Shown: positions 5,673-54,773 of the stretch, piece by piece
Layout of the letters: every line of letters starts with the position of its first letter
Position numbering within the stretch: the first letter of the stretch is position 1
DNA from: Plantibacter flavus
Lineage (GTDB): Bacteria; Actinomycetota; Actinomycetes; Actinomycetales; Microbacteriaceae
DNA length: 64,000 bases
Reading direction: 5' to 3'
Assembly (NCBI RefSeq): GCF_002024505.1
Contig: NZ_CP019402.1
Coordinates: 682,001 to 746,000, forward strand
Program-made: the position numbers and the translations under genes
The notes under the pieces: model-generated
The model's input: the letters and a program-made list of their open reading frames with translations, nothing else
The model's database searches: none
What the model was told of the DNA's origin: nothing

Positions 5673-5711
5673 GACGATGCTCCTTCTCGTGGCCGCCTGG
5701 TCACGGGTCAA

Positions 5712-5762: not shown

Positions 5763-5777
5763 TGCTACGCTGGAGTC

Positions 5778-6260
5778 ATGACCGAGACGCGATGGCTGAG
5801 CGACGACGAGCAACGCTCCTGGGTGCGCTTCGCCGCGGTGCTCGAACTCCTGCCGGCCGCGCTCGACCTCCAGCTCACGCGGGACGAGCACCTGACGCAT
5901 TTCGACTACTTCACGCTCGCGATGCTGTCCGAGACCCCGGGCCGCACGCTGCGCACCTCGGCGCTCGCGGCACGGACGAATGCGACGCTGCCCCGCTTGT
6001 CGCGGGTGCTGACGCGCTTGGAGGAGGCCGGCTTCGTGGCGCGGACACCGTGCCCGGAGGATCGACGGGCGACGAACGTGACGCTCACCGATGCGGGCTG
6101 GGACAAGGTCGTCCAGGCTGCGCCGGGCCACGTCGAGCACGTGCGATCCCTGGTCCTCGACGCACTGACGCCGGCGCAGATCGAGCAGCTCGGCGAGATC
6201 TCCGCCGCCCTCCTGACGAAACTCGACCCAGACGGACGGATGTTCGCCAGCGAGGCCTGA
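5778..6260 (+). CDS. MarR-family transcriptional regulator
   Basis: The 160-aa protein has the MarR fold: dimerisation helix, then the winged helix (RTSALAARTNATLPRLSRVLTRLEEAGFV, about 60-95) and the wing with the conserved DRRATNVTLTDAG. The ATG at 5778 is preceded by TACGCT with a six-base gap, so the mRNA is probably leaderless. It faces the reductase gene across two matching operators and is therefore likely autoregulated. The inducing ligand is unknown. Confidence 0.88.
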   Translation: MTETRWLSDDEQRSWVRFAAVLELLPAALDLQLTRDEHLTHFDYFTLAMLSETPGRTLRTSALAARTNATLPRLSRVLTRLEEAGFVARTPCPEDRRATNVTLTDAGWDKVVQAAPGHVEHVRSLVLDALTPAQIEQLGEISAALLTKLDPDGRMFASEA

Positions 6261-6354
6261 TCTCCGTCACCTGGGGGATTCGCGGCGCTCGAGGGCTGCG
6301 TAGCGTGGGGCTCGACGTCGCGGACACCACCGAGCGCGACGCGGATCGGAGCGA

Positions 6355-6639
6355 ATGATGACCGGATCGACGCAGCCCGAACCTGCACCATACGGGGACG
6401 AGGCGCCCCAGGGCGGTCCCGCCGCGGCGGAGCCCGAATCGACGCCTCCGCCCACGTCACTCAACGGTCAGACGACCTCGGTCTGGTACTTCGTCGGTGC
6501 GACGTTCCTCTTCGCCGGGCCCCTGATCTTCGGTGTCGACGACTTCGGGTTCTTCCGGATCATCACCCTCGTCCTCGGGGCGGTCGTCATGGTCGCCGGG
6601 TTCGTCGTGCTGCGACGCGAGAGCGGCAAGCGGTCCTGA
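6355..6639 (+). CDS. Small membrane protein of unknown function
   Basis: This 94-aa protein has a proline-rich polar N-terminus (about residues 1-40) and two hydrophobic helices, SVWYFVGATFLFAGPLIFGV and FFRIITLVLGAVVMVAGFVV, ending RRESGKRS. It is a probable inner-membrane protein with a cytoplasmic Pro-rich tail. A GGAGCG precedes tandem ATG codons at 6355 and 6358; either may be used. I do not recognise a named family, though such two-helix proteins are common in Micrococcales. Confidence 0.65.
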   Translation: MMTGSTQPEPAPYGDEAPQGGPAAAEPESTPPPTSLNGQTTSVWYFVGATFLFAGPLIFGVDDFGFFRIITLVLGAVVMVAGFVVLRRESGKRS

Positions 6640-6667
6640 GAGCGCTGACGCCGGGTCGGTCCGCCAA

Positions 6668-6715
6668 CCGTTCAATCGGCGGGCCGTTCAATCGGCGAGC
6701 CGTTCAATCGGCGAG
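6668..6715. repeat. Three 16-bp tandem repeats across a stop codon
   Basis: Three head-to-tail copies of CCGTTCAATCGGCGAG (the first with one change) run from 6668 to 6715. The innermost copy contains the TGA stop and last codons of the leftward aminotransferase gene. The outer two copies therefore duplicate the end of the gene, each carrying an extra stop. Confidence 0.85.
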
Positions 6716-7912
6716 GAAGGCCCTGATGCCGTCGAGCAGGCGGTCGACGTCCTCGTCCGAGGTGTACGGGGCGACGCCGACGCGGAGGCCTCCGACGTCG
6801 TCGAGGCCCAGCGCCGCGAACGGCTCGATCGCGTAGAACGAGCCGGCCGGTGCGAGGACGTCGCGAGCGGCGAGGAAGGCGGCCGCATCGGCTGCACGCC
6901 TGCCGGGGAACGTCATGAACAGCGTCGCCGTGCGTTCTGCGGCCCGCGAGTGCAGCTCGACGAGCGGGCCGAGCTCCGCGAGGGCGCCTTCGATGCGGGT
7001 GCGCAGCGCGAGTTCCCGTTCGTGGACGGCTGCGGCGGAGGCGACCAGACGGTCGCGTCTCGTCGTGGCGTCACCGGGGTCGATCGACGCGAGCACGCCG
7101 ATGGCCGCCGTCACGCCGCCCATGAGCTCGTAGGGCAGCGTGCCGAACTCGAAGCGCTCCGGCACACCGTTCGTCGACGGCAGCAGCTTGTCCGGGTGGA
7201 TCGACTCGAGCAGCGCCGGCGACGCGGCGAGGACACCGCAGTGCGGCCCGAAGAACTTGTACGGCGAGCAGACGAAGAAGTCGGCATCGAGGGCCTCGAC
7301 GTCGACGACGTGGTGCGCCGTGTAGTGGACGCCGTCGACCCAGACGAGCGCGCCGACCGCGTGCGCCCGATCGGCGATCGTCCGCACCGGCGGGATTGTG
7401 CCCAGGAGGTTCGACGCAGCGGTCACGGCGACGAGCCTCGTCCGTTCAGTGACGAGGTCGTCGAGGTCGGCGAGGTCGAGCTCGCCCGTCGCCGGGTCCA
7501 GGTCGATCCAGCGCACGGTCGCGCCTGTGCGGTCCGCCGCCTGCACCCACGGGCGCACGTTCGCGTCGTGGTCGAGTCGGGACAGGACGATCTCGTCGCC
7601 GGCGATCCAGCCGCGCGACAGATGCCTGGAGAAGTCGTACGTGAGCTGGGTCGCGCTCCGACCGTAGACGATGCCCCGCTCCTCCGCGGCGAGCAGGTCG
7701 GCGCACGCTGCGCGGAAGGCGGTCACGGCGTCGTCCGCCCGACGCTCGGACGCGACCGACGAACCCCGGTTGGACAGTGGCCCGGTGAGGGTGTCGAGGA
7801 TGGCCTGGCCGACGGCGAGCGGCGTCTGGGTGCCGCCGGGGCCGTCGAAGTGGGCGATGCCCGAGGCGAGGGACGGGAACGCGGTGCGGAGGAGGGCGAC
7901 GTCGAGGGTCAT
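6704..7912 (-). CDS. Cysteine desulfurase-like protein (class V aminotransferase)
   Basis: The 402-aa protein is a PLP-dependent class V enzyme. It begins like the TIGR01976-type cysteine desulfurase-like family (AFPSLASGIAHFDGPGGTQTP), carries the PLP aspartate in WVDGVH (Asp193) and the Schiff-base lysine in SPYKFFGPHCG (Lys219). It lacks an obvious flexible active-site cysteine loop like that of IscS or SufS, so its true substrate is uncertain; isopenicillin epimerase-like and kynureninase-like members are alternatives. It stands alone on the minus strand and its stop codon is inside a tandem repeat. Confidence 0.82.
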   Translation of the reverse strand: MTLDVALLRTAFPSLASGIAHFDGPGGTQTPLAVGQAILDTLTGPLSNRGSSVASERRADDAVTAFRAACADLLAAEERGIVYGRSATQLTYDFSRHLSRGWIAGDEIVLSRLDHDANVRPWVQAADRTGATVRWIDLDPATGELDLADLDDLVTERTRLVAVTAASNLLGTIPPVRTIADRAHAVGALVWVDGVHYTAHHVVDVEALDADFFVCSPYKFFGPHCGVLAASPALLESIHPDKLLPSTNGVPERFEFGTLPYELMGGVTAAIGVLASIDPGDATTRRDRLVASAAAVHERELALRTRIEGALAELGPLVELHSRAAERTATLFMTFPGRRAADAAAFLAARDVLAPAGSFYAIEPFAALGLDDVGGLRVGVAPYTSDEDVDRLLDGIRAFLAD

Positions 7913-7990
7913 ACGTCCATCCTGCCGCGCCGGGAGGCAGAACGTGCGGATCGCGGGAGCGAGCGCGCTACCGCTTGATACAGTGCCGGT

Positions 7991-8101
7991 GTGTCCATGC
8001 TCATCGCTCCGCCCCGTGTCGGGCGTCTGGAGGTCGTCGGCGTCCGCAACGCCGGCCCGAGAGAGCGGTCCATCCGGTCGACCACCTCGCCCACCCGGTG
8101 A
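7991..8101 (+). CDS. Possible short leaderless leader ORF upstream of the FBP gene
   Basis: The 326-bp gap 7913-8238 has no clear gene. It does contain TACAGT six bases before a GTG at 7991, the same spacing seen at many leaderless starts here. That GTG opens a 36-codon frame (MSMLIAPPRVGRLEVVGVRN...) ending at 8101. The FBP gene follows 137 bp later. It could be a leader peptide, the remains of a gene, or chance. I do not recognise the peptide. Confidence 0.25.
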   Translation: MSMLIAPPRVGRLEVVGVRNAGPRERSIRSTTSPTR

Positions 8102-8238
8102 GGACGTCGGCCTCGTCCATCGCGCTCGTCCGAGCGACGACGACGGGGCCGCGCACCCTGACGTACCCGCCGCAGCGCATCGACGCGCGGAGGGCTTCCC
8201 GCCGTCTCCCCGACGGCCCAGCCGAAACCGGTGAACCC

Positions 8239-8733
8239 ATGATCCCCCTGAACGAATCCCAGATCCGTGCCTCCTTCGTCAACGCATCGCGCAAGGAGGT
8301 CAGTGACGTGAGCCTTCCCGTCGACCTCGACGCGATCGACTTCGAGGTGCGTGACTTCCTCGGCTGGCGCGACAAGAAGCTGCCGCGACGCGCGTACGTG
8401 GTCACGATCGTCGACGGCGAACCCGTCGGCATCCTCCTCCGACAGGCCGACGCGACACCCCGCACCCGGCCGCAGTGCGCGTGGTGCCAGGACATCACGC
8501 TCAGCAACGACGTCGTGTTCTACAGCGCGAAGCGGGCCGGGCAGGCCGGCAAGAACGGCGACACCGTCGGCACGCTGGTCTGCGCCGACTTCCAGTGCTC
8601 GGCCAACGTGCGGAAGCTGCCACCGCTCGCCTACGTCGGTTTCGACGCGGAGGCGGCCCGCCAGGAGCGCATCGCGACGCTCGGCGTCCGTGCCGCCTCC
8701 TTCGCCTCCTCGGTCCTGAACGGCGTCGGTTGA
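8239..8733 (+). CDS. FBP (FusB-like) treble-clef zinc-finger protein
   Basis: This 164-aa protein has the C-terminal FBP domain found in FusB/FusC, proteins that bind elongation factor EF-G and rescue ribosomes stalled by fusidic acid. The zinc ligands are visible as Cys80-x2-Cys83 (CAWCQD) and Cys115-x4-Cys120 (CADFQC), with the typical SAKRAGQAGKNGDTVGTLVC between them. The start at 8239 gives the family's usual N-terminus (MIPLNESQIRASFVNASRKE). There is no strong ribosome site. In actinobacteria such genes are widespread and a resistance role is usually untested. A palindromic repeat follows the stop. Confidence 0.82.
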   Translation: MIPLNESQIRASFVNASRKEVSDVSLPVDLDAIDFEVRDFLGWRDKKLPRRAYVVTIVDGEPVGILLRQADATPRTRPQCAWCQDITLSNDVVFYSAKRAGQAGKNGDTVGTLVCADFQCSANVRKLPPLAYVGFDAEAARQERIATLGVRAASFASSVLNGVG

Positions 8734-8737
8734 GCTC

Positions 8738-8796
8738 CTGAGTCGCCCGGATCTGCACGAATTGCGGCCGGCTCCGCGCAGATTCGGGCGACTCAG
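8738..8796. repeat. Intergenic palindromic repeat, family A copy 1
   Basis: The arms CTGAGTCGCCCGGATCTGC (8738-8756) and GCAGATTCGGGCGACTCAG (8778-8796) are 19 bp with one mismatch, separated by 21 bp. Two further copies lie at 10408-10465 and 23546-23604. Each begins within a few bases of a stop codon. It could form a terminator-like hairpin, but conservation of the sequence suggests a REP-like element. Confidence 0.85.
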
Positions 8797-8823
8797 TCTG
8801 GTGCTCCGTGGTTGGATCGATGC

Positions 8824-9702
8824 ATGGGCGAGCACAGGGGTCACGAGCACCGACGTCAGCGGACGCTCACCACCAGCGGATGGCATGACTTCTGGGCGAA
8901 GGGCGGGATCGGCCGGGCGTTCCTGCTGGCCATCGTCTACCTCGCCCTGTACCTCGGGGCCGGCTGGGTCGTCGGGCAGCTCTTCACATCGCAGATCGGT
9001 GAGAACCTCTTCGCGACCCCGCAGAGCGTGTTCTTCGGGCTCATGCTGCCGCTCATCGTCGGTTCCCTCGTCCTGGCCGGGTTCGTGCTCTCGGTCGGCT
9101 GGTTCCGGGAGCTGTTCGCGAAGCAGCCGATCCGCGGACGCTGGTGGATGTGGGCCGCTCCGATCGTGATCCTCGCCGCGGTCGTCCTGCGGTTGCTCGG
9201 CATCGACTACGGGAGCTACGAGGGTTCTGTGGTCGTGGTCGCGATGCTGTCCGGCGTGTTCATCGGGTTCGCCGAGGAGATCCTGACCCGCGGACTGGTC
9301 GCGAAGATGCTGCGCGACGCCGGGAGTTCGGAGTGGATCGTGATGGTGATCTCCTCGCTGGTCTTCGCGCTGCTGCACGCCTCCAACCTCCTGTCGGGCC
9401 AGCCGGTCGTGACCGTGCTCGTGACCGTCGTCTACACCTTCGGATTCGGCGTGTGCATGTACCTGACGCTCCGGGTGACCGGCAACCTCATCTGGCCGAT
9501 CCTGATCCACGGACTCTACGACCCGACGCTCTTCCTCTCGACCGGTGGGATCGACCACGCGGGAGCGGCCGCCGGTCAGAGCGTGTTCCTGGCGATCGCC
9601 GGTCCGGCCAACCTGCTCATCATGCTCGTGGCCGTGATCGGCTTGATCTTCGTCCGTGGGCACGTGCAGGCCCACCCGGCCGACGACGTGCTGCGGCCGT
9701 AG
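8824..9702 (+). CDS. CPBP-family intramembrane metalloprotease
   Basis: The 292-aa membrane protein has about eight hydrophobic helices and the CPBP (Abi/Rce1-like) motifs: Glu151-Glu152 with Arg156 in EEILTRG, His185 in FALLHASN and His229 in LIHGLYDP. These bind the catalytic metal. Bacterial members are implicated in peptide processing and bacteriocin self-immunity, but most have no proven substrate. The ATG at 8824 follows a repeat element by only 27 bp; an in-frame TTG at 8812 is the alternative start. Confidence 0.85.
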   Translation: MGEHRGHEHRRQRTLTTSGWHDFWAKGGIGRAFLLAIVYLALYLGAGWVVGQLFTSQIGENLFATPQSVFFGLMLPLIVGSLVLAGFVLSVGWFRELFAKQPIRGRWWMWAAPIVILAAVVLRLLGIDYGSYEGSVVVVAMLSGVFIGFAEEILTRGLVAKMLRDAGSSEWIVMVISSLVFALLHASNLLSGQPVVTVLVTVVYTFGFGVCMYLTLRVTGNLIWPILIHGLYDPTLFLSTGGIDHAGAAAGQSVFLAIAGPANLLIMLVAVIGLIFVRGHVQAHPADDVLRP

Positions 9703-9745
9703 GCCGAACGGGTCTCGTCGACCGGCCACCAGTACGCTCGGACGG

Positions 9746-10411
9746 ATGACCACCGCGCGGCAGTACCCGGCGACGATCGCCGCGCCGGTCGAGCACGAAC
9801 TCGTGATCAAGAAGTCGCGCTTCCTCGGCCTCGCCCACCCGGTCGCGTCGCCGGAGGACGCGGAAGCGGTGATCGCGCGGGTGAAGAAGCAGGCGTGGGA
9901 CGCGCGACACCACTGCGTCGCGATGGTCACCGGGCTGCTCGGCGACCAGGCCCGCTCGTCCGACGACGGTGAACCGTCCGGCACGGCGGGGATGCCGATC
10001 CTCGAGGTCATCCGGCGGCGCGAGCTGACCGACGTGGTGGTCGTCGTCACGCGGTACTTCGGCGGCGTCAAACTCGGGGCCGGTGGGCTCGTCCGCGCGT
10101 ACTCCTCGGCGGCCTCCGAGACGCTCGACCTCGCCTCGCTCGTGCGCCGTGAGACTCTGACCCGCGCGACCCTCGTCGTCCCCCACGCCGACGCCGGGCG
10201 GTACGACAACCTGCTGCGCGATTGGGCCGCTACCCACGGTGCGACGCTCGGTGAGCCGGTCTACGGGGCGCAGGCTGAGCTGGAACTGTGGGTGCCGCCG
10301 GCGGAGCTCGAGCGGCTCCAAGCGGACGTCGCTTCGGCCTCCAACGGTTCGCTCGTCGTGGCCGTCGGGGAGGAGCGCGTCGTCGACGTCCCCGCCGGCA
10401 GACCTCGCTGA
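9746..10411 (+). CDS. YigZ/IMPACT-family protein
   Basis: The 221-aa protein shows the UPF0029 N-terminal domain (KKSRFLGLAHPV, then DDGEPSGTAGMPILEVI and VVVVTRYFGGVKLGAGGLVRAY) and a C-terminal DUF1949-like domain. The family is related to eukaryotic IMPACT, a translational regulator; in bacteria the role is unknown. TACGCT seven bases before the ATG suggests a leaderless transcript. Its stop codon lies inside a palindromic repeat. Confidence 0.88.
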   Translation: MTTARQYPATIAAPVEHELVIKKSRFLGLAHPVASPEDAEAVIARVKKQAWDARHHCVAMVTGLLGDQARSSDDGEPSGTAGMPILEVIRRRELTDVVVVVTRYFGGVKLGAGGLVRAYSSAASETLDLASLVRRETLTRATLVVPHADAGRYDNLLRDWAATHGATLGEPVYGAQAELELWVPPAELERLQADVASASNGSLVVAVGEERVVDVPAGRPR

Positions 10412-10465
10412 GTCGCCCGGATCTGCGCGAAATCCGCCGGATTCTGAACAGATCCGGGCGACTCA
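10408..10465. repeat. Intergenic palindromic repeat, family A copy 2
   Basis: CTGAGTCGCCCGGATCTGC (10408-10426) is identical to copy 1, and the right arm CAGATCCGGGCGACTCA (10449-10465) is its exact complement over 17 bases. The TGA of the YigZ gene is bases 2-4 of the left arm, so the element forms the 3' end of the gene. Confidence 0.85.
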
Positions 10466-10496
10466 CCGGAACGGGCGATCCCGATAGGGTCGGACC

Positions 10497-11108
10497 ATGC
10501 ACACCGACGTGACCCGCATCGACGGGCTTCCCGACCTCGCCTGGACCTCGACCCGCGGAATCGCCGCGTTCGACGCCGATGCCGGAGCGCTCACCCTCAC
10601 CTCCGCCGCCGGCGTCGACTGGAGCAACAGCTCGCTCGGTGGGCCGCGTGAGTTGCGTGCCACGGCGCTCGCCTTCGACGCACCCGAACACTTCACGCTC
10701 TCGGCGCGGATCGCGGTCGTGAGCGAGCGCAGCACCTTCGACGCCGGCGCCCTCGCACTCTGGATCGACGACGAGCACTGGGCCAAGCTCTGCTTCGAGC
10801 AGTCGCCGCAGGGGCAGGCGATGGTGGTGAGCGTCGTGACGAACACCTGGTCGGACGACGTGAACTCGACGCACGTCGCGGCCGACCACGTGTGGATGCG
10901 TGTCAGTCGTCTCGGTGAGGCGTGGGCGTTCCACAGCTCGACCGACGGCGTCACGTGGGACTTCGTCCGGGTCTTCCGTCTGCACAGCGACGCCCCGGTG
11001 CGCGTCGGCTTCCTCTCGCAGGCGCCGCTCGGTCCACCCTGCGAGGCGCGGTTCGACGAGATCGCCTTCGGAGCAGCACCCCCGACGGACCTCCGCGACG
11101 GGAGCTAG
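10497..11108 (+). CDS. DUF1349 (concanavalin A-like fold) protein
   Basis: The 203-aa protein is a DUF1349 beta-sandwich, with LSARIAVVSERSTFDAGALALWIDDEHWAKLCFE, the segment VSRLGEAWAFHSSTDGVTWDFVRVF and VRVGFLSQAP typical of the family. Yeast homologues were once named regulators of enolase expression, but no biochemical activity is known. It is cytoplasmic with no signal sequence. TAGGGT six bases before the ATG points to a leaderless transcript. Confidence 0.85.
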   Translation: MHTDVTRIDGLPDLAWTSTRGIAAFDADAGALTLTSAAGVDWSNSSLGGPRELRATALAFDAPEHFTLSARIAVVSERSTFDAGALALWIDDEHWAKLCFEQSPQGQAMVVSVVTNTWSDDVNSTHVAADHVWMRVSRLGEAWAFHSSTDGVTWDFVRVFRLHSDAPVRVGFLSQAPLGPPCEARFDEIAFGAAPPTDLRDGS

Positions 11109-11141
11109 TCGTCCTCGACCGGTGCGACCGCGGGTCCGGAG

Positions 11142-11177
11142 TTGACGTATCGGAACCTATCTTCCTATAGTGGCTCC
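11142..11177 (+). promoter_or_regulatory. PadR promoter with palindromic operator
   Basis: TTGACG (11142-11147) and TATAGT (11166-11171) are spaced by 18 bp, and the ATG follows the -10 by six bases, so the mRNA starts at or near the start codon. The spacer and -10 contain TATCGGAA-N6-TTCCTATA (11148-11169), an inverted repeat with one mismatch. It is well placed for PadR autorepression. Confidence 0.75.
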
Positions 11178-11555
11178 ATGGCACGCAGACGACCCGGCAC
11201 GCTCTTCCCGCTCGAGCTCGACATCCTCGACGTCGGCACCGTGTTGCAGGCGACCGATGGGAGCTTCTACGGGTTCGCCCTCGCCAAGCAGCTCGCCGAA
11301 GCCGGGGATGCCGCCCTCACTGCGCACGGCACGCTCTACAAGGCCCTGTCACGGATGGCGGATGCCGGCCTGATCGAGGCGACGTGGGAGGCTCCGGAGG
11401 TCGCCGAGGCGGAGGGCCGCCCCCGTCGACGGCTGTATCGGATCACGGGCGAAGGCGCGACGGCCAGGGATCGTGAGCACGCGAGGATCGCCGGTGAGCA
11501 GGCCTCCGCGGCGAGGCCGGCGGGTGCGGCGTGGACGCAGGGGGCGATCGCATGA
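11178..11555 (+). CDS. PadR-family transcriptional regulator
   Basis: The 125-aa protein is a PadR winged helix: FPLELDILDVGTVLQATDGSFYGFALAKQL, the recognition region AHGTLYKALSRMADAGLIEATWE and the wing RRRLYRITGEG. It lacks a long C-terminal dimerisation domain, as in the short PadR-s2 type. It leads an operon in which each gene overlaps the next by ATGA (11552, 12310). PadR proteins in such operons usually control the membrane proteins encoded behind them. Confidence 0.88.
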   Translation: MARRRPGTLFPLELDILDVGTVLQATDGSFYGFALAKQLAEAGDAALTAHGTLYKALSRMADAGLIEATWEAPEVAEAEGRPRRRLYRITGEGATARDREHARIAGEQASAARPAGAAWTQGAIA

Positions 11556-12313
11556 CCGCCGTCCGGACACCGGAGTACCGCACGGCCGCCCACCGCGTCC
11601 TGAACTGGTGCGGGTGGTACACCCGAGACCTCTCGCCCGACGTCGCCGGGGAGCGCCGCGACGAGATCGCCTCCGACCTGCACGAGCACGCCGTCTGGGC
11701 CCAGGAGACGGGCGTCACGCCACAGCGGCTCCGGCGCGACATCATGCTGCGGGCCATCCGCGGGATCCCGCACGACCTCTCGTGGCGCTCCGGGCAGTTG
11801 CGCGCGGGCCACGGCGTCGATCCGATGCCGCTCGGCATGCGGCGGGCCGGTGATGTCCTCGCAGCGCTCGTGGTGACCGGCGGCGTCCTGGTCACGGGAG
11901 CGGCACTGTTCCTCCTCGTCCGGATCCTGCGTGCTCTCGTCATCGGCGACGTCGTCGAGGTGCCGATGGGCGCGCTCGGTGTGGCGATCGCCGCGGTCCT
12001 GGGCATCGTGGGGCTCGTGCTGTCGCTGCGGCGACGCAGTCGATGGCTCGGCGCGGGGCTCCTGGCGCCCGCAGCGGTCCTCATCGGCGTGCTCGCGGGC
12101 GACATCATGTACCGCGTCAGCGCGACCGGCGTGCTCATCGTGTCCCGCCTGAGCTCGCACGGCGCCGGATTCGAACCGTGGTGGGTGATGAGCGTGGCGA
12201 TCGGGGTCGGGGCGGCGCTCGGGTTCATCGGAGCCGCGGTGTGGTGGTGGCCGGGGGGTCGCCGAACGACGGAACGGGACGCAGTGGCGTCGATGCAGGG
12301 GGAGACGGTATGA
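11552..12313 (+). CDS. Membrane protein in PadR operon
   Basis: The 253-aa protein has a cytoplasmic N-terminal region of about 95 residues resembling the HAAS-type signalling domain that accompanies PadR regulators (RRDEIASDLHEHAVWAQ, RLRRDIMLRAIRGIPHDLSWR). Four hydrophobic helices follow, between about residues 100 and 240. It overlaps padR by four bases, so translation is coupled. In the family this domain is thought to interact with PadR or sense envelope state. The specific role is unknown. Confidence 0.75.
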   Translation: MTAVRTPEYRTAAHRVLNWCGWYTRDLSPDVAGERRDEIASDLHEHAVWAQETGVTPQRLRRDIMLRAIRGIPHDLSWRSGQLRAGHGVDPMPLGMRRAGDVLAALVVTGGVLVTGAALFLLVRILRALVIGDVVEVPMGALGVAIAAVLGIVGLVLSLRRRSRWLGAGLLAPAAVLIGVLAGDIMYRVSATGVLIVSRLSSHGAGFEPWWVMSVAIGVGAALGFIGAAVWWWPGGRRTTERDAVASMQGETV

Positions 12314-12954
12314 GCGGCAGCGAGATCCACGACGGGCCGGACGCGGCGCAGGAGGCGGCACCCGTCCGCCGGAGTTCCGGAATGCTCCGACGACGGATCG
12401 GGCTCGGCATCGCGATGAGCGGGGTGCTCGCGGTGGCGGCAGGCGGGGTGTTCATCGGGGTGTCGAACGCCCAGGCGGCCGCTGACGACGCCCGATCCCT
12501 CGAAGCGGTCGCCGAGGCCGCCGCGTCGCTCGACGACCTCCCGCCCGTCGAACCCGTGGTGCCCGCGGATCCCGCTGCCACGCCGGACGCTGGCGAACCC
12601 GTCTCGCCGGCGTCCGGAGTCGACTACTCGCAGACGCCGGAGGGCTGGTTCGACGCGACCACCGATCCGGCGGACATCCCACCCAGCTCCGACCCGGGAT
12701 TCCGTGACGGGATCTGGGAAGCACAACAGCAGATCATCGCGAAGTGCATGGCTGATCAGGGGTTCTGGTACGCCTGGACGAACGAACCCTCCAAGATCCT
12801 CGATCCGCTCTTCGGCATGGTCATGTCGGAGTCGTCCGATGCGGCGTTCCTGGCCCGGTGGGGAACGAACCCCGACGATCAACCGTACGACTGGAAGCTC
12901 GCCGGCTGCCACGGCTACGCCGTCCACGTCACCGGGATGGACGACGCCCACTGA
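12310..12954 (+). CDS. Membrane-anchored or secreted protein in PadR operon
   Basis: The 214-aa protein has a basic N-terminus, one hydrophobic segment (GLGIAMSGVLAVAAGGVFIG, about residues 37-56) and an Ala-rich ANAQAAADD-like region that could be a signal peptidase site. A proline/aspartate-rich linker follows, and then a C-terminal domain with two cysteines (KCMADQGFWYAW and AGCHGYAVHV) that may form a disulfide outside the cell. I do not recognise a named family. It is translationally coupled to the gene before it. Confidence 0.7.
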   Translation: MSGSEIHDGPDAAQEAAPVRRSSGMLRRRIGLGIAMSGVLAVAAGGVFIGVSNAQAAADDARSLEAVAEAAASLDDLPPVEPVVPADPAATPDAGEPVSPASGVDYSQTPEGWFDATTDPADIPPSSDPGFRDGIWEAQQQIIAKCMADQGFWYAWTNEPSKILDPLFGMVMSESSDAAFLARWGTNPDDQPYDWKLAGCHGYAVHVTGMDDAH

Positions 12955-13005
12955 CGCCGTTGATCGGCGGCGCCGGCGTCCGACGCCGGTGCTAGCGTCG
13001 CCCGC

Positions 13006-13599
13006 ATGAGAATTCTGTTGATCGGAGCCAGTGGACAGGTCGGACGAGCGGCGCAGGACGCCCTCGCGGAACGTCACGAGGTGATCGCGGTGTCACGCTC
13101 GACCGCGCCTGCCGTCGACACCACCGACGAGGCGTCGGTCGAGGCGCTGTTCGCCGAGGTGGGCGAGGTCGACGCGGTGATCGTCGCCGTCGGCTCGGTC
13201 CCGTTCAAGCCTGTGGGGGAGCTGACGCGCGACGACTACCGCGCGGCCTTCCTCGGCAAGGTGCTCAGCCAGCTCGACGTCGTGCGGATCGGGACGCCGT
13301 TCGTCCGCGACGGCGGCTCCTTCACGCTCACGACGGGCATCCTCGCCCGCGAGCCGATCGCGACCGGTGCGGCGGCCTCGATGGCCAACGGAGCGGTCGA
13401 GTCCTTCGTGATCGGTGCCGCCCCGGAACTCCCACGCGGCATCCGCATCAACGCCGTCAGCCCCACGGTGCTCGCCGAGGCCACCGGCTACCACGACGCG
13501 TTCCCGGGCTTCCCGCCCGTCGCCTCCGACGTGGTCGGCCTCGCCTTCGTGCGCGCCATCGAGGGTGTCGGCACCGGTCGGGTGCTCGCGCTGGACTGA
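13006..13599 (+). CDS. Short-chain dehydrogenase-like protein lacking the catalytic tyrosine
   Basis: The 197-aa protein has the SDR nucleotide motif GASGQVG (7-13), the VIVAVGSVPF strand and the closing segment NAVSPTVLAEA. It is short for an SDR. At the usual YxxxK position the sequence reads AAASMANGAVESF, so both catalytic Tyr and Lys are absent. Family members of this short type (for example those annotated as short chain dehydrogenase near YwnB-like proteins) share this. It may bind NAD(P) without classic reductase chemistry. TAGCGT seven bases upstream suggests a leaderless start. Confidence 0.78.
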   Translation: MRILLIGASGQVGRAAQDALAERHEVIAVSRSTAPAVDTTDEASVEALFAEVGEVDAVIVAVGSVPFKPVGELTRDDYRAAFLGKVLSQLDVVRIGTPFVRDGGSFTLTTGILAREPIATGAAASMANGAVESFVIGAAPELPRGIRINAVSPTVLAEATGYHDAFPGFPPVASDVVGLAFVRAIEGVGTGRVLALD

Positions 13600-13616
13600 G
13601 CCGTCCCGGCACTCCC

Positions 13617-13671
13617 GAGGGGAGGCATGTCGTCGTCCGGCCGTCCGTCAGGCGACGATCCGCCTCCCCTC
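13617..13671. terminator. Hairpin terminator candidate
   Basis: GAGGGGAGGC (13617-13626) pairs with GCCTCCCCTC (13662-13671), and the inner GTCGTCG/CGACGA segments extend the stem. It lies just after the SDR-like stop codon and before the next gene. There is no U-tract, which is usual in this genome. Confidence 0.55.
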
Positions 13672-13716
13672 AGTCGCGCTCTCGACGCGGCCGACACCCA
13701 GCGCTAGGGTCGGCAC

Positions 13717-14130
13717 ATGACCCGCTTCCTGCTGAGCATCGCCGTCAGTCTGCTGTCCTCGGCGATCGGGCTGCTCGTCGCGGACTGGGTCGTACCCGGC
13801 GTCCGCTTGTCGCTCGGCGGTTTCGTCATCGCCGTCGTCGTCTTCACGATCGCGCAGGGCGTCCTCGGGCCCTTCATCCTGCGCCTCGCGCGGCGCTACG
13901 CCTCAGCGATCCTCGGCGGCATCGGACTCGTGACGACGCTCGTGTCGTTGTTCGTCGCGTCGATCCTCCCCGGCGGCCTCCACATCCGCGGTGTCCTCGC
14001 CTGGGTGCTCGCACCGCTGGTGGTGTGGCTGGTCACGGCGCTCGGGAGCTGGATCCTCGGTTGGGCGCTCATCACGCGACGGTTCGGCGACCGGGATCGC
14101 GATCGAGGCGGCAAGCGCACGAAGCGGTAG
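13717..14130 (+). CDS. Phage holin family IV-like membrane protein
   Basis: The 137-aa protein has four hydrophobic helices and a basic C-terminal tail (RRFGDRDRDRGGKRTKR). The arrangement, with DWVVPGVRL in the first loop, is that of the four-helix mycobacterial-type holin superfamily IV found as ordinary chromosomal genes in actinobacteria. No phage genes are near, so it is not evidence of a prophage. TAGGGT six bases before the ATG implies a leaderless transcript. Confidence 0.8.
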   Translation: MTRFLLSIAVSLLSSAIGLLVADWVVPGVRLSLGGFVIAVVVFTIAQGVLGPFILRLARRYASAILGGIGLVTTLVSLFVASILPGGLHIRGVLAWVLAPLVVWLVTALGSWILGWALITRRFGDRDRDRGGKRTKR

Positions 14131-14153
14131 GCGGCGGCGGAGCCCGGACGGGA

Positions 14154-15446
14154 TCAGCGGCCGGCGGCCAAGGCGGCTGCCAGCTCGACGCGGCTCGCCA
14201 CGCCGAGCTTCCGCAGGACGTTCGCGATGTGGAACTTCACGGTGTTCTCGCTGATGGTGAGGGTCTCGGCGATCGCCCGGTTCCGTGCTCCTCCGGCGGC
14301 CAGCTCGGCGACGCGCCATTCGCGCTCGGTCAACGCGGCGGCCGCCGAGTCGGAACGTGTCTGGGCTGCGGGCGGTGGGTCGAGCGGAAGCGTCACGTGC
14401 AGTTCCGAACCCCACCCGGGCGTCGCCTGGACATCGAGACTGCCGCGGAGTGCGGCGACGCGAGCGCCGAGCTGCTGCACACTCGGGGTGTCGACGGTCA
14501 ACTCGCCGGGGCCGTCGTCGCGGATGCCGATGAGCAGGTTGCTGCCGTCGCAGTCCCACTGCACCCGGACCCGCCCGACCGAGGACTGCTCGACGAGTGC
14601 GAGGACGGTGCCGCGGACGATCGCCCGTCCGGCGTGCGCCACTTCACCGGGGAGGGCCCGGCCGTCGACGGGCGGCTCGATGAACTGGACCTCGGGACCG
14701 CCGAAGCGGGCCAGCGGACGGAGATCCTCGCGGAGTCTGGCGAAGGCGCGCGCGACCGGTTCCTCGGCCAGTTGGCGGTCGCGGTCGGACACCGCCCGCA
14801 GCTCGACCATCGCGGCCGAGGCGATCTCGGTCACCGCCGTTCGGGCGTCCTCCGCCGACGTCTGCCGTGACCGGGTGACGGCGAGGATCGACTCCAGTGT
14901 CGTCGCATGGGCGTCGGTGAGTTCCGCGATGGCGCCGGCCCGCTCGCTCGACGCCGCCCGCGAGTCACGGAGGTAGTCGGGGGCCGCCGTCGCGACCTGC
15001 TGCCGGATACCGGCCGCGACGACCTCCCACAGGGCGCCGATGAGCCGGTCGTCGATCGACCCCTGTGGGTCGGTCAGGACGAGGAGGGCGCCGGTGTCGG
15101 CGAGCCACGCGGCGATCGGACGTTCCGCGCCTGCGATCACCGCCGACGTCGGCCGGTCGGCGTGTGGGTCGGCATCGGCGGTCACAGCGGTGGCCGGGCC
15201 GCGCGGGGTGCGCTGTCGGACCGCGTCGAGCTCGGCGATCGTGACGCCCTCGACGATCGCGGGGTCGCCGGCCTTCTTCCGGGGGCGGCCGGTGCAGTCC
15301 TCAGTGAAGATCACGAGCGCGGAATGGGCGACGACCGGCTCGAGGACCTCCCGGAACGCACCGGCGATGCGCAGCAGCGAGCTGGATGCGACGGAGGCCA
15401 GGCCGTCGAGCAGCTCGACCGGGTAGGTGACAGAGCGTTCGATCAT
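14154..15446 (-). CDS. LuxR-type regulator with ATPase-like domain
   Basis: The 430-aa protein combines a GAF-like N-terminal half (about 1-200), a histidine-kinase-type ATPase-like domain (about 250-360, with IGIRDDGPGELT as the G1-like box and WGSELHVTLPL at its end) and a LuxR helix-turn-helix at the C-terminus (LTEREWRVAELAAGGARNRAIAETL, then ISENTVKFHIANVLRKLGV). No phosphoacceptor His in a DHp helix and no receiver domain are evident, so it looks like a one-component regulator. It diverges from hxlB-hxlA and probably controls them. TAGGGT six bases before the ATG suggests leaderless translation. Confidence 0.82.
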   Translation of the reverse strand: MIERSVTYPVELLDGLASVASSSLLRIAGAFREVLEPVVAHSALVIFTEDCTGRPRKKAGDPAIVEGVTIAELDAVRQRTPRGPATAVTADADPHADRPTSAVIAGAERPIAAWLADTGALLVLTDPQGSIDDRLIGALWEVVAAGIRQQVATAAPDYLRDSRAASSERAGAIAELTDAHATTLESILAVTRSRQTSAEDARTAVTEIASAAMVELRAVSDRDRQLAEEPVARAFARLREDLRPLARFGGPEVQFIEPPVDGRALPGEVAHAGRAIVRGTVLALVEQSSVGRVRVQWDCDGSNLLIGIRDDGPGELTVDTPSVQQLGARVAALRGSLDVQATPGWGSELHVTLPLDPPPAAQTRSDSAAAALTEREWRVAELAAGGARNRAIAETLTISENTVKFHIANVLRKLGVASRVELAAALAAGR

Positions 15447-49658: not shown

Positions 49659-49710
49659 GCACTGAGGCTAGTGCCGCGTGGTGAACGGGCGGTAGCGCGG
49701 AGAGAGGCCC

Positions 49711-49739
49711 TTGCGGTCGACCATCTTAAACTCTACATT
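49711..49739 (+). promoter_or_regulatory. Promoter of lanthipeptide operon
   Basis: TTGCGG (49711-49716), a 17-bp spacer and TACATT (49734-49739) precede lanKC, followed by the ribosome site AAGGGAGG at 49753-49760. The region from 49720 is AT-rich compared with the flanks. No operator is obvious. Confidence 0.6.
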
Positions 49740-49767
49740 TGAAATATCAAACAAGGGAGGGCGCTTC

Positions 49768-52422
49768 GTGGACCAGAGGTATTTCCAGTTCAGTCATCCG
49801 GAGCTGCCCTTCTACTCGTCTGCGAAGGCGCAGCAGCGCGGCGACGGGTTCCAGCCACAAGGTATCCCCAACGACTGGCGGCGCTTCCGGCAAAACGGCT
49901 GGGAGATGTGCGCTCCACCAGACGTGGACCTACCCGTTCAGGGTTGGAAGATTCACGTCTCCGCGACTCCTGACGCGGCCGCTGAGACGCTGCAGGCCAC
50001 AGTTGACGTATGTGTGGCGATGAGCGCGTCGTTCAAGTTCGTTCCGACCCGCGACGGTCTCGTGGCACGAAACTCGAAGAGCGCCGACAGGGCTGCGAGC
50101 GGAAAGTTCGTGACTGTCTATCCGTGCGATGCTCATCAACTGGATCGCCTGATTGACACCCTCTCCGCATGTCTCAGTGGTCGGCCAGGACCATTCATCC
50201 TGAGCGATGTGAGAGTCGGCGACGGTCCGCTGTATCTCCGCTACGGCGGATTCATGCCCCTGATGGTCCCAGATGCAACCGATGAGCCCGTGCTTTCTCT
50301 CGTCGGCGATGGGTTCCGACTGATCGCCGACCTTCGCGTGCCGTACTTCGACATGCCTGCCGAGGTTCAAATGACGGACAAAGTACGACACGCCATCAAG
50401 ATCTTCCGTGAGGTGCCTGCCGAGCAGTCACCTCTCGATGACTATGACTTGCTCACCCCGCTGAAGTTCTCGAACAGCGGAGGAGTCTACGAGGCATCGT
50501 CAGGTGGAGGGGCCGTCCGCTCGATCGTGAAAGAAGCAAGGCCTCTTGCTGGCCTAGACGCGCGCGGACGCGATGCAGTCGAACGGCTCAATGTCGAGGG
50601 TGAAACGCTGTCGCACGTGGCACATCTTGAGATTGCTCCGCGGCCCATCCGGATGTTCACCGCTTGGGAACACCGCTTTCTCGAGATGGAGCACGTCCCA
50701 GGGGAGCCGCTGAGTGCATGGGGGGCGAAAAACTATCCATTCAGTCGGGAACGCCTGGCCAGTGATGAGCAGTCCCGCTTCGTCGATTGTGTGGATCGCA
50801 TCATGAGTTCGATCGAACGGTGCGTTGCGATGCTTCATCAGCAGGGAGCGGTTGCTGGTGATCTGCACCCCGGCAACGTCCTTGTGCTTGCCGACCTGTC
50901 GGTTCGCCTCATCGACCTCGAGGACGGACGGCAACCGAATAGTCGAACGCGGTCGAGCTTCAACGCGCTGGGTTACGCTCCGCCGGACGGGTACACCGCT
51001 GCAGAAGCTGACTGGTTCGCAGTGTCACGTATCGCCGCGTCCCTCTTCCAGGTCAACAGGTCGATCGAGATACTCGCCCCAGGTCACTGGTACAGGACTA
51101 TAGACATGGTCTCGGCGACGTTTGGCTCGAGGGCAGCGGAAATCATCCGTCGCGCTTGTGTCAAACTGCCGCGTGAATTGACGACTCAGGTCGAACTGAC
51201 ACCGGCCGAGTCGCCATCCGTGTGGGACGTTGAACGGCTGGGAGACCCAGTGACGCGTGATCGACTTGCTCAGGGTATTCTGGCGTCCCTCCGTGCAACG
51301 TCCGGCGCACTCTTTCCTGGCGATGTGGCCCAAGCCGACCCGTTCGGAACGGTGAACGTTGCGAACGGGGCTGCCGGAGTGTTGCTCTCCCTGGCGCGCG
51401 CGGATGTCGACATCACGTCAGACCTCACTGAATGGCTCGTCGCCGCGGCCGATACCTCACCTCCCGATACGAAACCCGGTTTGTTCAACGGCCTTGCGGG
51501 CGTCGCTGCAGCACTCAGCGAACTTGGTGCACACGATGCGGCGAAGCGCCATATCGATCGCTCATTGCAGGCGCGAGGCAGGACGCGTAGCCTCAACCTG
51601 TTCGGCGGACTCGCAGGGATCGGCCTGTCAGCCGTCGGCGCAGCGCTCGAGTATGAAGACTCGGAGTACTTCGAGATTGCGCTGGAGTGCGCCGCCCGCA
51701 TTTCGGCACAGCTGTTCTCCGACGGTGAATCCAGCGCATCTGAGGCACTCGACCGTCGGGCAGGGCTGTTGTTCGGATGGTCGGGTATCTCCTTGTTCTT
51801 GTCCACGCTCGCGCGACACCACGATGACTTCGGCGCAATGCGACTCGCTATCCGAGCAGTCGAGCGCGACCTTTCTCGGACGCGTTCTTACGCTGATGAC
51901 CTCGTGGGAATTGAGGACACGGAGAACGGGAGAACACTTCCGTATCTTGCCCGAGGCAGCGCGGGGGTTCTTGTGGCAATCGCGCAATTGCAGGACCGGG
52001 TCGACCTCGGTGACGACGTCTCGCTTGTGACAGCGGGACTGCGACGCGCCTGCGCGAGCCACACGTACGCGTTCTCTGGTCTCTTCAACGGCCGTGCGGG
52101 GATACTCGCAGCGCTCGCGGCTGATCGCGCTCCGATCGCTACTGACGGCGCTGAATTCCAACGAAGCGCTCTCGCTCACGACGCCTTGTGTTGGAGACGA
52201 TCGGTGCAGTTTCCCGGAGAGAACTACCTCCGATTGTCCAGCGACTTGGCGACTGGAAGTGCAGGTATCCTCGCCGCGCTCACAGCACAACGTCAAAGAG
52301 ACCTGTCCTGGCTGCCGCTGATGCAGCAGCCCGGGCTGTTCGAGCGAGCGCAGGGTTCGCTCGGTCTTGATCGGAGAGGAGGTGATGAACATGAACAAGG
52401 TTCTCGACCTTCAGCGCCGTGA
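49768..52422 (+). CDS. lanKC: Class III lanthipeptide synthetase LanKC
   Basis: The 884-aa protein has the three LanKC domains in order. Residues 1 to about 200 are the phospho-Ser/Thr lyase, with GWKIHVSAT (His63) and FKFVP (Lys90). Residues about 230-500 are the kinase, with Lys255 in VKEARP, GDLHPGN (Asp365, Asn370) and LIDLEDG (Asp383). The rest is the cyclase, with six LanC-type turns such as GLFNGLAGV, FGGLAGI, FGWSGIS, RGSAGV, FNGRAGI and TGSAGI. The LanC zinc Cys and CHG motifs are absent (WS and FNG instead), which defines class III not class IV. It phosphorylates, eliminates and cyclises the precursor encoded at its 3' end. The GTG start has AAGGGAGG seven bases away. Codon use is less GC-biased than neighbours. 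Confidence 0.95.
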   Translation: MDQRYFQFSHPELPFYSSAKAQQRGDGFQPQGIPNDWRRFRQNGWEMCAPPDVDLPVQGWKIHVSATPDAAAETLQATVDVCVAMSASFKFVPTRDGLVARNSKSADRAASGKFVTVYPCDAHQLDRLIDTLSACLSGRPGPFILSDVRVGDGPLYLRYGGFMPLMVPDATDEPVLSLVGDGFRLIADLRVPYFDMPAEVQMTDKVRHAIKIFREVPAEQSPLDDYDLLTPLKFSNSGGVYEASSGGGAVRSIVKEARPLAGLDARGRDAVERLNVEGETLSHVAHLEIAPRPIRMFTAWEHRFLEMEHVPGEPLSAWGAKNYPFSRERLASDEQSRFVDCVDRIMSSIERCVAMLHQQGAVAGDLHPGNVLVLADLSVRLIDLEDGRQPNSRTRSSFNALGYAPPDGYTAAEADWFAVSRIAASLFQVNRSIEILAPGHWYRTIDMVSATFGSRAAEIIRRACVKLPRELTTQVELTPAESPSVWDVERLGDPVTRDRLAQGILASLRATSGALFPGDVAQADPFGTVNVANGAAGVLLSLARADVDITSDLTEWLVAAADTSPPDTKPGLFNGLAGVAAALSELGAHDAAKRHIDRSLQARGRTRSLNLFGGLAGIGLSAVGAALEYEDSEYFEIALECAARISAQLFSDGESSASEALDRRAGLLFGWSGISLFLSTLARHHDDFGAMRLAIRAVERDLSRTRSYADDLVGIEDTENGRTLPYLARGSAGVLVAIAQLQDRVDLGDDVSLVTAGLRRACASHTYAFSGLFNGRAGILAALAADRAPIATDGAEFQRSALAHDALCWRRSVQFPGENYLRLSSDLATGSAGILAALTAQRQRDLSWLPLMQQPGLFERAQGSLGLDRRGGDEHEQGSRPSAP

Positions 52423-52528
52423 TGCGCATCGCGGCATCGGAACGCTAGGCAGCAACTGGAGCTGGTGGGCCTGCGGCGAAAACCAGCCGGAGAGTTCGGC
52501 CAGCCTGTTCGCGTGCGCGGGCGGCTGA
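52391..52528 (+). CDS. lanA: Class III lanthipeptide precursor (labyrinthopeptin-like)
   Basis: The 45-aa peptide starts MNKVLDLQ, holding the LxLQ leader motif recognised by LanKC enzymes. The predicted core follows Gly20 and contains SNWSWWAC (Ser21, Ser24, Cys28) and SSASLFAC (Ser35, Ser38, Cys42), each a Ser-x-x-Ser-x-x-x-Cys labionin (or lanthionine) motif, joined by GENQPE, with AGG at the end. The gene overlaps lanKC by 32 bp in another frame. An AGGAGGT site at 52377-52383 is seven bases from ATG 52391; the ATG at 52385 is too close. Mature labyrinthopeptin A2 is very similar in motif, but this core lacks its two extra cysteines. Leader cleavage site is inferred. Confidence 0.9.
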   Translation: MNKVLDLQRRDAHRGIGTLGSNWSWWACGENQPESSASLFACAGG

Positions 52529-52531
52529 TGA

Positions 52532-52549
52532 GGGGGGGGGGGGGGGGGG
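52532..52549 (+). repeat. Eighteen-base poly-G tract
   Basis: A run of 18 G residues starts three bases after the lanA stop codon and runs into the left arm of the hairpin 52546-52586. Such a tract is prone to slippage, and could also be an assembly error. It is outside lanA, so length change would not alter the precursor, but would alter short frames after it. Confidence 0.9.
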
Positions 52550-52586
52550 CTGCTGCGCACACGAGGACATCGAGCGCAGCAGCCCC
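52546..52586 (+). terminator. Strong hairpin between precursor and exporter genes
   Basis: GGGGCTGCTGCGC (52546-52558) and GCGCAGCAGCCCC (52574-52586) are exact 13-bp complements with a 15-base loop. Placed between lanA and the exporter, it probably acts as a partial terminator or 3' mRNA stabiliser that raises precursor over exporter levels. Confidence 0.75.
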
Positions 52587-52650
52587 GATGCTCACGACCG
52601 ACCTGAGCTGGTGGAGACACCGTGCCTGAACGACGAAAGACACTGCAACG

Positions 52651-53397
52651 ATGAGCCTTGAAGCACGCGATCTCTCCTTCAGCTATTCGCTGCATCGCCG
52701 CGACCCGGTCCACGTGTTGCGGGGGGTGAGTCTTTCTGTAGCCGCCGGTGAGTCGTTGGCGGTCGTCGGGCCCTCGGGATCCGGGAAGTCGACACTCCTG
52801 CACTGCCTATCTGGTCTCCGAGCTCCGACACGTGGAAGCGTCGTGGCGTTGGGGACGGAGCTGTCATCCCTGACCGAATGGGGTCGTTCCCGATTCCGGC
52901 GGCGGTCCGTCGGCTTCGTGTTCCAGGACTACAACCTGATCCCCTCCATCAACGCGCGGGACAACCTCGCGTTGCCCGCGCTCTTCGCCGGTCGCGCAGC
53001 CGGGCGTCAGGCGGTCGCAGATGTCGCCGCAGACATCGGACTGTCGTCGCGCCTCCGGCATCGCCCGGACGAGCTGTCAGGCGGTGAACGGCAGCGCGTC
53101 GCGATCGGCCGGGTGTTGCTGTCGCAGGCTGAATTGGTCTTCGCCGACGAACCCACCGGTGCACTTGACACGTCGTCAGGACGGGTCGTGCTCGACCTCC
53201 TGTTCGGATCGCTCGGTCCCGAACGCACGATGGTGATGGTGACCCATGACCTCGACGCTGCTGCGCGTGCGGATCGTGTGCTGGTCCTCTGTGACGGTTC
53301 CGTCCACGCTGAGCTGACGTCCGCCACCCCGGAGGCGCTCTGGTCCGCCATCGAAACGGCCCGCGCGGACAGTGTCCATACGTCCGTGGGAGCATGA
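52651..53397 (+). CDS. ABC transporter ATP-binding protein, lanthipeptide export
   Basis: The 248-aa ATPase is of the MacB/LolD type: GPSGSGKST Walker A, FVFQDYNLIPSINARDNLALP, the LSGGERQRVAIGR signature and the VFADEPTGALDTSSG Walker B. It overlaps the permease gene by ATGA. In class III loci such exporter pairs provide secretion or self-immunity for the product. Its codon use is normal high-GC. Confidence 0.9.
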   Translation: MSLEARDLSFSYSLHRRDPVHVLRGVSLSVAAGESLAVVGPSGSGKSTLLHCLSGLRAPTRGSVVALGTELSSLTEWGRSRFRRRSVGFVFQDYNLIPSINARDNLALPALFAGRAAGRQAVADVAADIGLSSRLRHRPDELSGGERQRVAIGRVLLSQAELVFADEPTGALDTSSGRVVLDLLFGSLGPERTMVMVTHDLDAAARADRVLVLCDGSVHAELTSATPEALWSAIETARADSVHTSVGA

Positions 53398-54773
53398 CGA
53401 TGGCCGGTCTCGTTCTCCGCACACTCCTGCATCAGTGGCGGGTGTGGATCTCCCTGCTCCTGTTCCTGGCACTCGCGAACGCGCTCCTTGTCAGCGTGGG
53501 AGTGCTCGTGGAGGCCGCCGGTCGGCTGCCCGTCCGGGAACAGCGCATCGTCCGGAATCTGAGCACGCCGATGTACGGGATGGCCTCGCTCGCGGTCTTC
53601 GTCATCACCTCGAGCGCGGTCTCCTTGGCGGTGCAACTCCAGCGTCGACCGTTCGCGACCTGGAAGCTCGCGGGGATGTCGTCAGTGCGGATCGCCGGCG
53701 TCCTTGTATCGCAGCTGATCGTGCTCGGGACCGTGGGCGGAGCGCTCGGGCTGCCACTGGCCCTATTGGTCGCACCGCGGTTCACCGGCTGGGTCCTGCA
53801 GGCCAACGCGGTCGCCGCGATCGTCGATGCCCCGGCGAGCACGCTGGTGCTCCTGTCGACCTGGGCACTGCTCATCGGCATCCTGTTGCTCGCCGGTCTG
53901 CAAGGTGCCGGCTCGATCCTCCGGGTACCGGCGGTCGACGCGGTCCTGAGCGCGGAAGTCGTCCGCCGTCGCCCGACCGCGTTCAGGCTCGCGCTCAGCC
54001 TGGTCATGTCGGCGGCGGTCCTCGCCGTGGCGGCCGGAATGGTCGGTACGGCGAGCGGCGACGTGTCCAGTCGGCTCGGTCTCCTAGTCGGCCTCGCGAT
54101 GCTCCTGTCGTTGCTGATCATCCCGCTGATCGCGCTGCACGTCTCGCGGATCGCTGCGATGTTCCTCGCGGCGTGGACATGGATCGTCCCACGTCGATGG
54201 TCGACGGCTTGGTACCTCGCGCGTCGTGGCTGCGCCTTCCGCTTGGATCGTGTAGGCGTCTCCCTCGTTCCGCTCTACGTCGCGGTCGCCCTCGCGAATT
54301 CGATCTACACCGTGTTCGAGACCGCCGATTCCGCCAGGAGGGCGGCCGGGCTTGTGTCCGCCGGCGAGCACGGCATCAACCACTCCGGTGTCTGGACCAT
54401 TCTCGGTCCGACGGTCGTCCTGGCGATCGCCGGCACCGCGACGGTCGTGGTGATGGCTGCTCGTGAGCGGGTGCACGAGCGGGCGCTGCTGGCTGTGGGC
54501 GGCGTCAGTCACCGCTCGATCGTCGGAGCCGGCGTCGTCGAAGCCTTCATGTATGCCGTGACCGCGACGTTCCTCGGGCTCCTGACGGCAGCGGCTGTCT
54601 CAGCGGTGGAGGCTGAGGCGTTCGGTCGCCTCGAAGAGGGGGCGCGCCCGGTGCTCGCCGTCGCGCCAGGCCTCGCGGTCGGCGCTGGAGGCTTCTGTGT
54701 GCTGGCTGCCGCCCTCGCTTTGCCCGCGGCGCTGGAGCATCGTCGAGCGGCGGTGGACAGGCTCCCTCGCTGA
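53394..54773 (+). CDS. FtsX-like ABC permease, lanthipeptide export
   Basis: The 459-aa protein has about ten hydrophobic helices in two FtsX-like halves. The first half contains VQLQRRPFATWKLAGMSSVRIAGVL and the second has MAARERVHERALLAVGGVSHRSIVGAGVVEAF, the cytoplasmic loops that contact the ATPase. It forms the transporter with the preceding gene. It ends about 57 bp before the HAIR site of the clpC-like gene, which starts a separate unit. Confidence 0.87.
   Translation: MTMAGLVLRTLLHQWRVWISLLLFLALANALLVSVGVLVEAAGRLPVREQRIVRNLSTPMYGMASLAVFVITSSAVSLAVQLQRRPFATWKLAGMSSVRIAGVLVSQLIVLGTVGGALGLPLALLVAPRFTGWVLQANAVAAIVDAPASTLVLLSTWALLIGILLLAGLQGAGSILRVPAVDAVLSAEVVRRRPTAFRLALSLVMSAAVLAVAAGMVGTASGDVSSRLGLLVGLAMLLSLLIIPLIALHVSRIAAMFLAAWTWIVPRRWSTAWYLARRGCAFRLDRVGVSLVPLYVAVALANSIYTVFETADSARRAAGLVSAGEHGINHSGVWTILGPTVVLAIAGTATVVVMAARERVHERALLAVGGVSHRSIVGAGVVEAFMYAVTATFLGLLTAAAVSAVEAEAFGRLEEGARPVLAVAPGLAVGAGGFCVLAAALALPAALEHRRAAVDRLPR

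Follow-up and report, generated by a model that had tools for sequence, protein, structure and literature searches.

Described class III peptides and the Plantibacter locus

Class III lanthipeptide precursors carry a leader recognition motif of the LxLQ type, described in PMC5719810, and core motifs of the form Ser-x2-Ser-x(2-5)-Cys, as defined in PMC11251773 and PMC8960859; according to the latter, known peptides commonly have two or three of them. The SapB/AmfS group is put at more than 4,000 sequences in PMC13380574. The same source reports durhapeptin, from Streptomyces durhamensis, for which mass spectrometry of an engineered variant supports two labionins. Its printed core, TGASTASLLSCVSAASVLLCL, has only the two ring cysteines, although one sentence of that text says four.

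The window analyzed here is a 64,000-nucleotide stretch of the Plantibacter flavus genome (contig NZ_CP019402.1, positions 682,001 to 746,000 of the forward strand). At 52391–52528 on its plus strand it encodes a 45-residue peptide, MNKVLDLQRRDAHRGIGTLGSNWSWWACGENQPESSASLFACAGG, in which the motifs SNWSWWAC and SSASLFAC are joined by the linker GENQPE and followed by the tail AGG, exactly as the first-pass annotation had read it. The peptide resembles durhapeptin in its two tandem Ser-x2-Ser-x3-Cys motifs, its LDLQ-containing leader and its LanKC synthetase, but the durhapeptin core is aliphatic with a one-residue linker, whereas the window core is aromatic and acidic with a linker of six. The SapB/AmfS family (NF033212 and PF19402) likewise has two motifs, an LxLQ leader and no disulfide cysteines, and its models are among the best family matches of the window peptide. 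Its linker is two residues long rather than six, however, and the peptide falls below both cut-offs (23.2 bits against 25 for NF033212, 22.6 against 24.3 for PF19402), as it does for NF038159, lanthi_III_b (26.6 against 30). Since the SapB/AmfS, RamS, and lanthi_III_b models are all below cut-off, we do not file the precursor with any of them. The window core is also less hydrophobic, with a GRAVY of −0.33 compared to 0.44 for one SapB-like core of the census described below.

Labyrinthopeptin A2 of Actinomadura namibiensis shares with the window peptide an aromatic first ring and a second ring with SLFAC. The two cores agree at 11 of 16 motif positions, the next best of the 48 strict census cores reaching 9; the motif itself accounts for six of the 16, and 32 of the 48 cores share 7. 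Labyrinthopeptin A2 reportedly has a one-residue linker, which is a cysteine, a further cysteine at its terminus, and a disulfide. The window peptide has none of these, its only cysteines being Cys28 and Cys42, and for want of the two disulfide cysteines it is not a member of the labyrinthopeptins. The label “labyrinthopeptin-like” in the first-pass annotation thus holds for the motif positions, but not for a disulfide-less labyrinthopeptin scaffold as the novelty.

Closer in linker are class III precursors with five residues between the motifs (loci L049, L050, L052 to L056, L058, L060, L062, L065, and L071 of the census are examples), which also have a longer polar linker, such as TPHEN, ESHTP, or GSVKP. 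Unlike the window peptide, they have aliphatic rings and a stretch rich in Gly ahead of the core, and their LanKCs lie in a separate clade. The lipolanthines, which contain avionin, have a Ser-x2-Ser-x2-Cys motif, and their clusters include a LanD decarboxylase, unlike the window, where both motifs are Ser-x2-Ser-x3-Cys and the unit is filled by the LanKC, precursor, and ABC transporter genes. By these sequence comparisons, what is individual to the window peptide is its aromatic core, the most similar to labyrinthopeptin A2 of the 48, together with a LanKC on a lone branch.

The LanKC synthetase

The LanKC gene, at 49768–52422 on the plus strand with a GTG start, encodes an 884-residue class III lanthionine synthetase with lyase, kinase, and LanC-like cyclase regions, and by its sequence it is intact. 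The protein scores 742 bits against NF038151, the class III LanKC equivalog model (cut-off 575), and only 324.7 bits against the class IV model NF038150 (cut-off 650). Its RamC_N (PF25816) and LANC_like (PF05147) domains are above cut-off, and a Pkinase match is below its own. The solved LanKC structure 8sap matches residues 5–858 of the 884, and other solved LanKCs are matched near full length as well. The translation contains GDLHPGN and IDLED, and the last 300 residues lack the CHG motif, a setting in which a metal-independent cyclase is expected according to PMC10604976. CHG was found in 11 of the 118 LanKC-like proteins of our set; all 11 are below the NF038151 cut-off, and we treated them as class IV. 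With VLDLQ fitting the LxLQ-type motif, two Ser-x2-Ser-x(2-5)-Cys motifs in the core, and this cognate synthetase, the earlier assignment to class III, with two labionin-type motifs, is borne out.

Outside the three Plantibacter genomes that carry it, the LanKC has at most 35% identity to any match in the family search. Plasmid matches number 73 records, all below 60% identity, with 32–35% among the 15 matches listed. A FastTree tree of 99 rows places the protein alone on a long branch. Its nearest relative there is the LanKC of L144, which has a linker of two (support 93, with a long-branch warning). A single LanKC was found in the host genome at E 1e-10.

The precursor gene

The leader region (52391–52450, plus strand) is taken as residues 1–20, with a putative boundary; VLDLQ spans residues 4–8, and LxLQ residues 5–8. 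The core region (52451–52525, plus strand) would comprise residues 21–45, with five serines and two cysteines. It is acidic and aromatic, with four Trp or Phe residues; for comparison with its GRAVY, labyrinthopeptin A2 has 0.51 and three other census cores have 0.40–1.43. If the core starts at Ser21, its calculated [M+H]+ is 2645.08 unmodified, 2573.04 with four waters lost, and 2555.03 with five lost. A Shine-Dalgarno-like GAGAGGAGG lies upstream of the start. An alternative in-frame ATG at 52385, two codons upstream, would add Met-Asn, and the mechanical open reading frame opens earlier still, at TTG 52367. The first 32 bases of the gene overlap the 3' end of the LanKC gene. A scan for a leader plus two motifs gave no peptide in 4,000,120 bases of sequence simulated from a third-order Markov model of the window and a single peptide, the precursor, in the window itself.

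The same precursor protein, residue for residue, is encoded in three of the seven Plantibacter genomes searched (the host, G001, and G005). Its DNA is identical in the window and G001; compared to G005 there are three synonymous changes, and 0 of 45 codons are protein-changing. In contrast, of the 884 codons of the LanKC gene, 127 differ synonymously and 80 change the protein between the window and G005 (Fisher p = 0.027 for protein changes per codon in precursor versus LanKC, on small numbers). That the peptide is unchanged in three genomes even though one LanKC has diverged to 91% shows that the open reading frame is a real gene, and we consider it highly probable, from its sequence and setting, that it is a functional class III precursor.

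Beyond these three genomes, no credible precursor homologue was found among 398 genomes of the family and 386 of the order, two draws that overlap. Weak matches with E values of 0.0006–0.01 occurred, 5 in the family and 11 in the order genomes; they cover 19–37 residues at 38–53% identity, and four contain stops. Neighboring precursors were sought around the five family-genome matches only. The host genome (G000) holds no second copy, its two other matches having E values of 0.36 and 1.8. The exact core strings had no match in the open-access literature searched, and the same literature yielded no paper joining Plantibacter and lanthipeptides. The sequence of the precursor appears to be new; its architecture is ordinary.

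A four-gene unit present or absent as a whole

Empty-site alignments define the cassette as an insertion/deletion unit of 5069 bp (49700–54768) between an MFS-type permease gene and a clpB-like gene, flanking names that we read from the sequence, without a family search. In four of the seven Plantibacter genomes the site is empty: position 49698/49699 is joined directly to 54769 across some 17 bases. Because the empty site is clean in all four, the genes within the 5.07 kb (the LanKC, the precursor, an ABC ATPase, and an FtsX-like permease) came or went together; there is no protease or regulator among them. The G+C content over the LanKC is 0.59–0.63, compared to 0.67–0.74 in most flanking windows, which suggests that the cassette was acquired from outside.

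The ATPase (248 residues, 52651–53397, plus strand) matches PF00005 with 111.9 bits; its best NCBIfam names are of the YbbA/LolD type, below their cut-offs, and it stands at the same place in the three cassette genomes. ATPases 30–47% identical to it occur beside some other LanKCs, including the second LanKC of three Plantibacter genomes, and identities in this range are common among ABC ATPases. The permease (458 residues, 53400–54773, plus strand) has FtsX-like domains (PF02687, 39.8 bits; cut-off 25.5), and its role would be export or self-protection. Matches to it were confined to the three cassette genomes, in a set in which most other loci cover only about 1.5 kb beside the LanKC.

Between the precursor and transporter genes, at 52532–52586 on the plus strand, an 18-G run precedes a hairpin whose stem is 13 bp long. 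The stretch 52515–52620 folds with a z of −3.71, none of 200 shuffles being as stable, and the stem is largely kept in two relatives. The hairpin may serve in RNA processing or in attenuation, and it could let the cell produce more precursor than transporter mRNA. Scans found no terminator-like site at the hairpin, and the only promoter candidate was weak and lies on the minus strand. The 18-G run itself (52532–52549) directly follows the precursor stop codon and is reduced to 6 and 5 G in two relatives; its length is due either to homopolymer slippage or to an error in the assembly.

Linker lengths among class III loci

We assembled a census of 124 loci and dropped 22 of them (11 with CHG, treated as class IV; nine that duplicate or closely copy another locus; L010, a copy of L006; and L019, a partial match), leaving 102 class III LanKC loci. 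Some loci below the NF038151 cut-off were kept, as were a few partial LanKCs (such as L110, L112, L113, and L115) and L073, which holds two LanKC genes. The genomes were an even draw, and the search for the pattern Ser/Thr-x2-Ser/Thr-x(2-3)-Cys twice, with an LxLQ-like leader, covered about 1.5 kb beside each LanKC. Sixty of the 102 loci have such a two-motif precursor, giving 77 distinct peptides, 48 of them with a strict Ser-x2-Ser-x3-Cys pair. The other 42 loci gave none; their precursors may be single-motif, farther away, of other kinds, or missed.

Not one of the 77 peptides has a Cys-Cys pair, so the missing disulfide cysteines are the rule among these class III precursors. The first-pass annotation had presented tandem rings without a disulfide as something new, a claim that is not supported, as this is the usual class III plan. 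Linkers have 0 (n=1), 1 (n=23), 2 (n=22), 3 (n=6), 4 (n=3), 5 (n=21), or 6 residues (n=1), lengths of 1, 2, or 5 accounting for 66 of the 77. The single linker of six is that of the window, the longest in the census by one residue. The count of six residues in place of one was correct as noted at the outset, but linkers one residue shorter are common.

With linker labels assigned to the tree by hand, and some loci having precursors of several lengths, twelve five-residue rows group with one four-residue row, fifteen two-residue rows group together, and nine one-residue rows group with one unlabeled row. Outside these groups lie other one-, two-, and five-residue rows, including L061, L144, L016, L011, L013, L014, L070, L074, L090, and L057. 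This suggests that linker length tends to follow LanKC clade, with exceptions, a testable idea on how LanKCs place rings in which the window enzyme is a separate point at six. Several five-residue-linker LanKCs rank directly after the Plantibacter rows in a phmmer-ordered list. A derivation of the long linker from kinship with those enzymes is nonetheless unsupported, as the tree puts the Plantibacter LanKC outside their clade; given the long-branch warning on the join with L144, we limit the claim to that.

Proposed pathway and alternative readings

We are confident, on the sequence evidence, that the window holds a class III lanthipeptide cassette that is self-contained and that is gained or lost as one block in Plantibacter. 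This reading draws on the equivalog match, the near full-length matches to solved LanKC structures, and the lack of CHG; on the 32-nucleotide overlap of the precursor with the LanKC gene, the unchanged precursor protein, and the clean empty site; and on the precursors of the same plan near LanKC in 60 of 102 loci. Counted against it are the scores below curated cut-offs for all three precursor models, the restriction of credible homologues to three genomes, and the lack of a protease or regulator gene in the cassette. The cassette product is very probably a modified peptide with two rings, new in itself but of a familiar kind, and with it Plantibacter contributes a class III lanthipeptide that has a new sequence and is probably functional.

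By analogy with the family, VLDLQ would dock the precursor on the LanKC, whose kinase would phosphorylate core serines and whose lyase would eliminate the phosphate to give dehydroalanines. The metal-free cyclase would then close one ring per motif (Ser21/Ser24/Cys28 and Ser35/Ser38/Cys42), as labionin or lanthionine, leaving the flexible six-residue linker between them. Class III clusters usually come without their own leader protease, according to PMC8960859 and PMC7268733, and a protease encoded outside the cassette would trim the leader; published examples are M16B pairs, AplP-like, and FlaP-like enzymes (PMC10604976, PMC5719810, and PMC8960859). The ABC pair would export the peptide or protect the cell. 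Our guess, by analogy, is a secreted membrane-active or signaling peptide with aromatic rings.

For ring type, we estimate that at least one labionin is reasonably probable, while the prediction that both rings are labionin is evenly balanced. The same cassette might instead make plain lanthionines of the SapB/AmfS type, or one ring of each, the middle serines remaining as dehydroalanine, and this we consider unlikely. SapB and AmfS are described as carrying two lanthionines (PMC13380574), and the motif can yield either lanthionine or labionin, depending on the peptide (PMC7268733). In ThurKC, PMC10604976 reports that the Ala variant of Asp771 lacks the labionin-ring peak, and this residue aligns with the Asn of GLFNG in the window LanKC. 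The GLFxG position varies (A, T, Q, R, N, and D) among the LanKCs listed, however, and so predicts little; we rejected it as a labionin/lanthionine discriminator. The aromatic core, moreover, is closest to a labionin peptide, labyrinthopeptin A2. That likeness could also point to a labyrinthopeptin ancestor whose two disulfide cysteines disappeared and whose linker was extended. Such descent would account for the best score of the 48, but it is very improbable: as noted above, six positions come with the motif and 32 of the 48 cores already reach 7, and the LanKC stands alone on a long branch, with a weakly joined nearest relative that has a linker of two, in a tree that was built without LabKC.

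Least probable of all is a dead or decaying cluster without product. Its patchy presence, in three of seven genomes, and the G run after the stop codon would fit decay. Against this, the LanKC frame is free of stops and the precursor is intact in all three cassette genomes, where the ATPase and permease also align end to end or nearly so, and the precursor protein stays unchanged while the LanKC varies. Returning to an active class III cassette, we regard as improbable a more specific form of it, a two-domain labionin peptide in which independent aromatic rings on a flexible hinge would each bind a membrane lipid head group, an untied divalent labyrinthopeptin. If it held, the LanKC would modify two distant ring sites, and the linker would be a handle on motif-to-motif movement. 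As the most labyrinthopeptin-like of the 48, the core would be a reasonable choice for asking whether lipids are bound without a disulfide.

Other LanKC loci

A second LanKC cluster, with 29% identity to the window LanKC, is present in three Plantibacter genomes (L162, about 5135–14477, in G001; L007 in G004; L009 in G005) and was not found in the genome of the window. The L162 precursor, MSALLSLQGLSNESGPEVGVFGSGISMWCDGDNSGISISCGPN, has two Ser-x2-Ser-x2-Cys motifs, the spacing of the lipolanthines, and its neighbors are a two-component system, an ABC ATPase, an FtsX permease, and a fused ABC exporter. In the L009 precursor, Arg replaces the first Ser of the second motif. L011 (G037), with a LanKC of the same family (f1), has a row of four or more candidate class III precursors, one with near-identical rings, STWSVAAC and STWSVVAC, separated by a single Ala. 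L070 and L074 each have five different candidate precursors with two or three motifs, sets that amount to a natural library for one enzyme.
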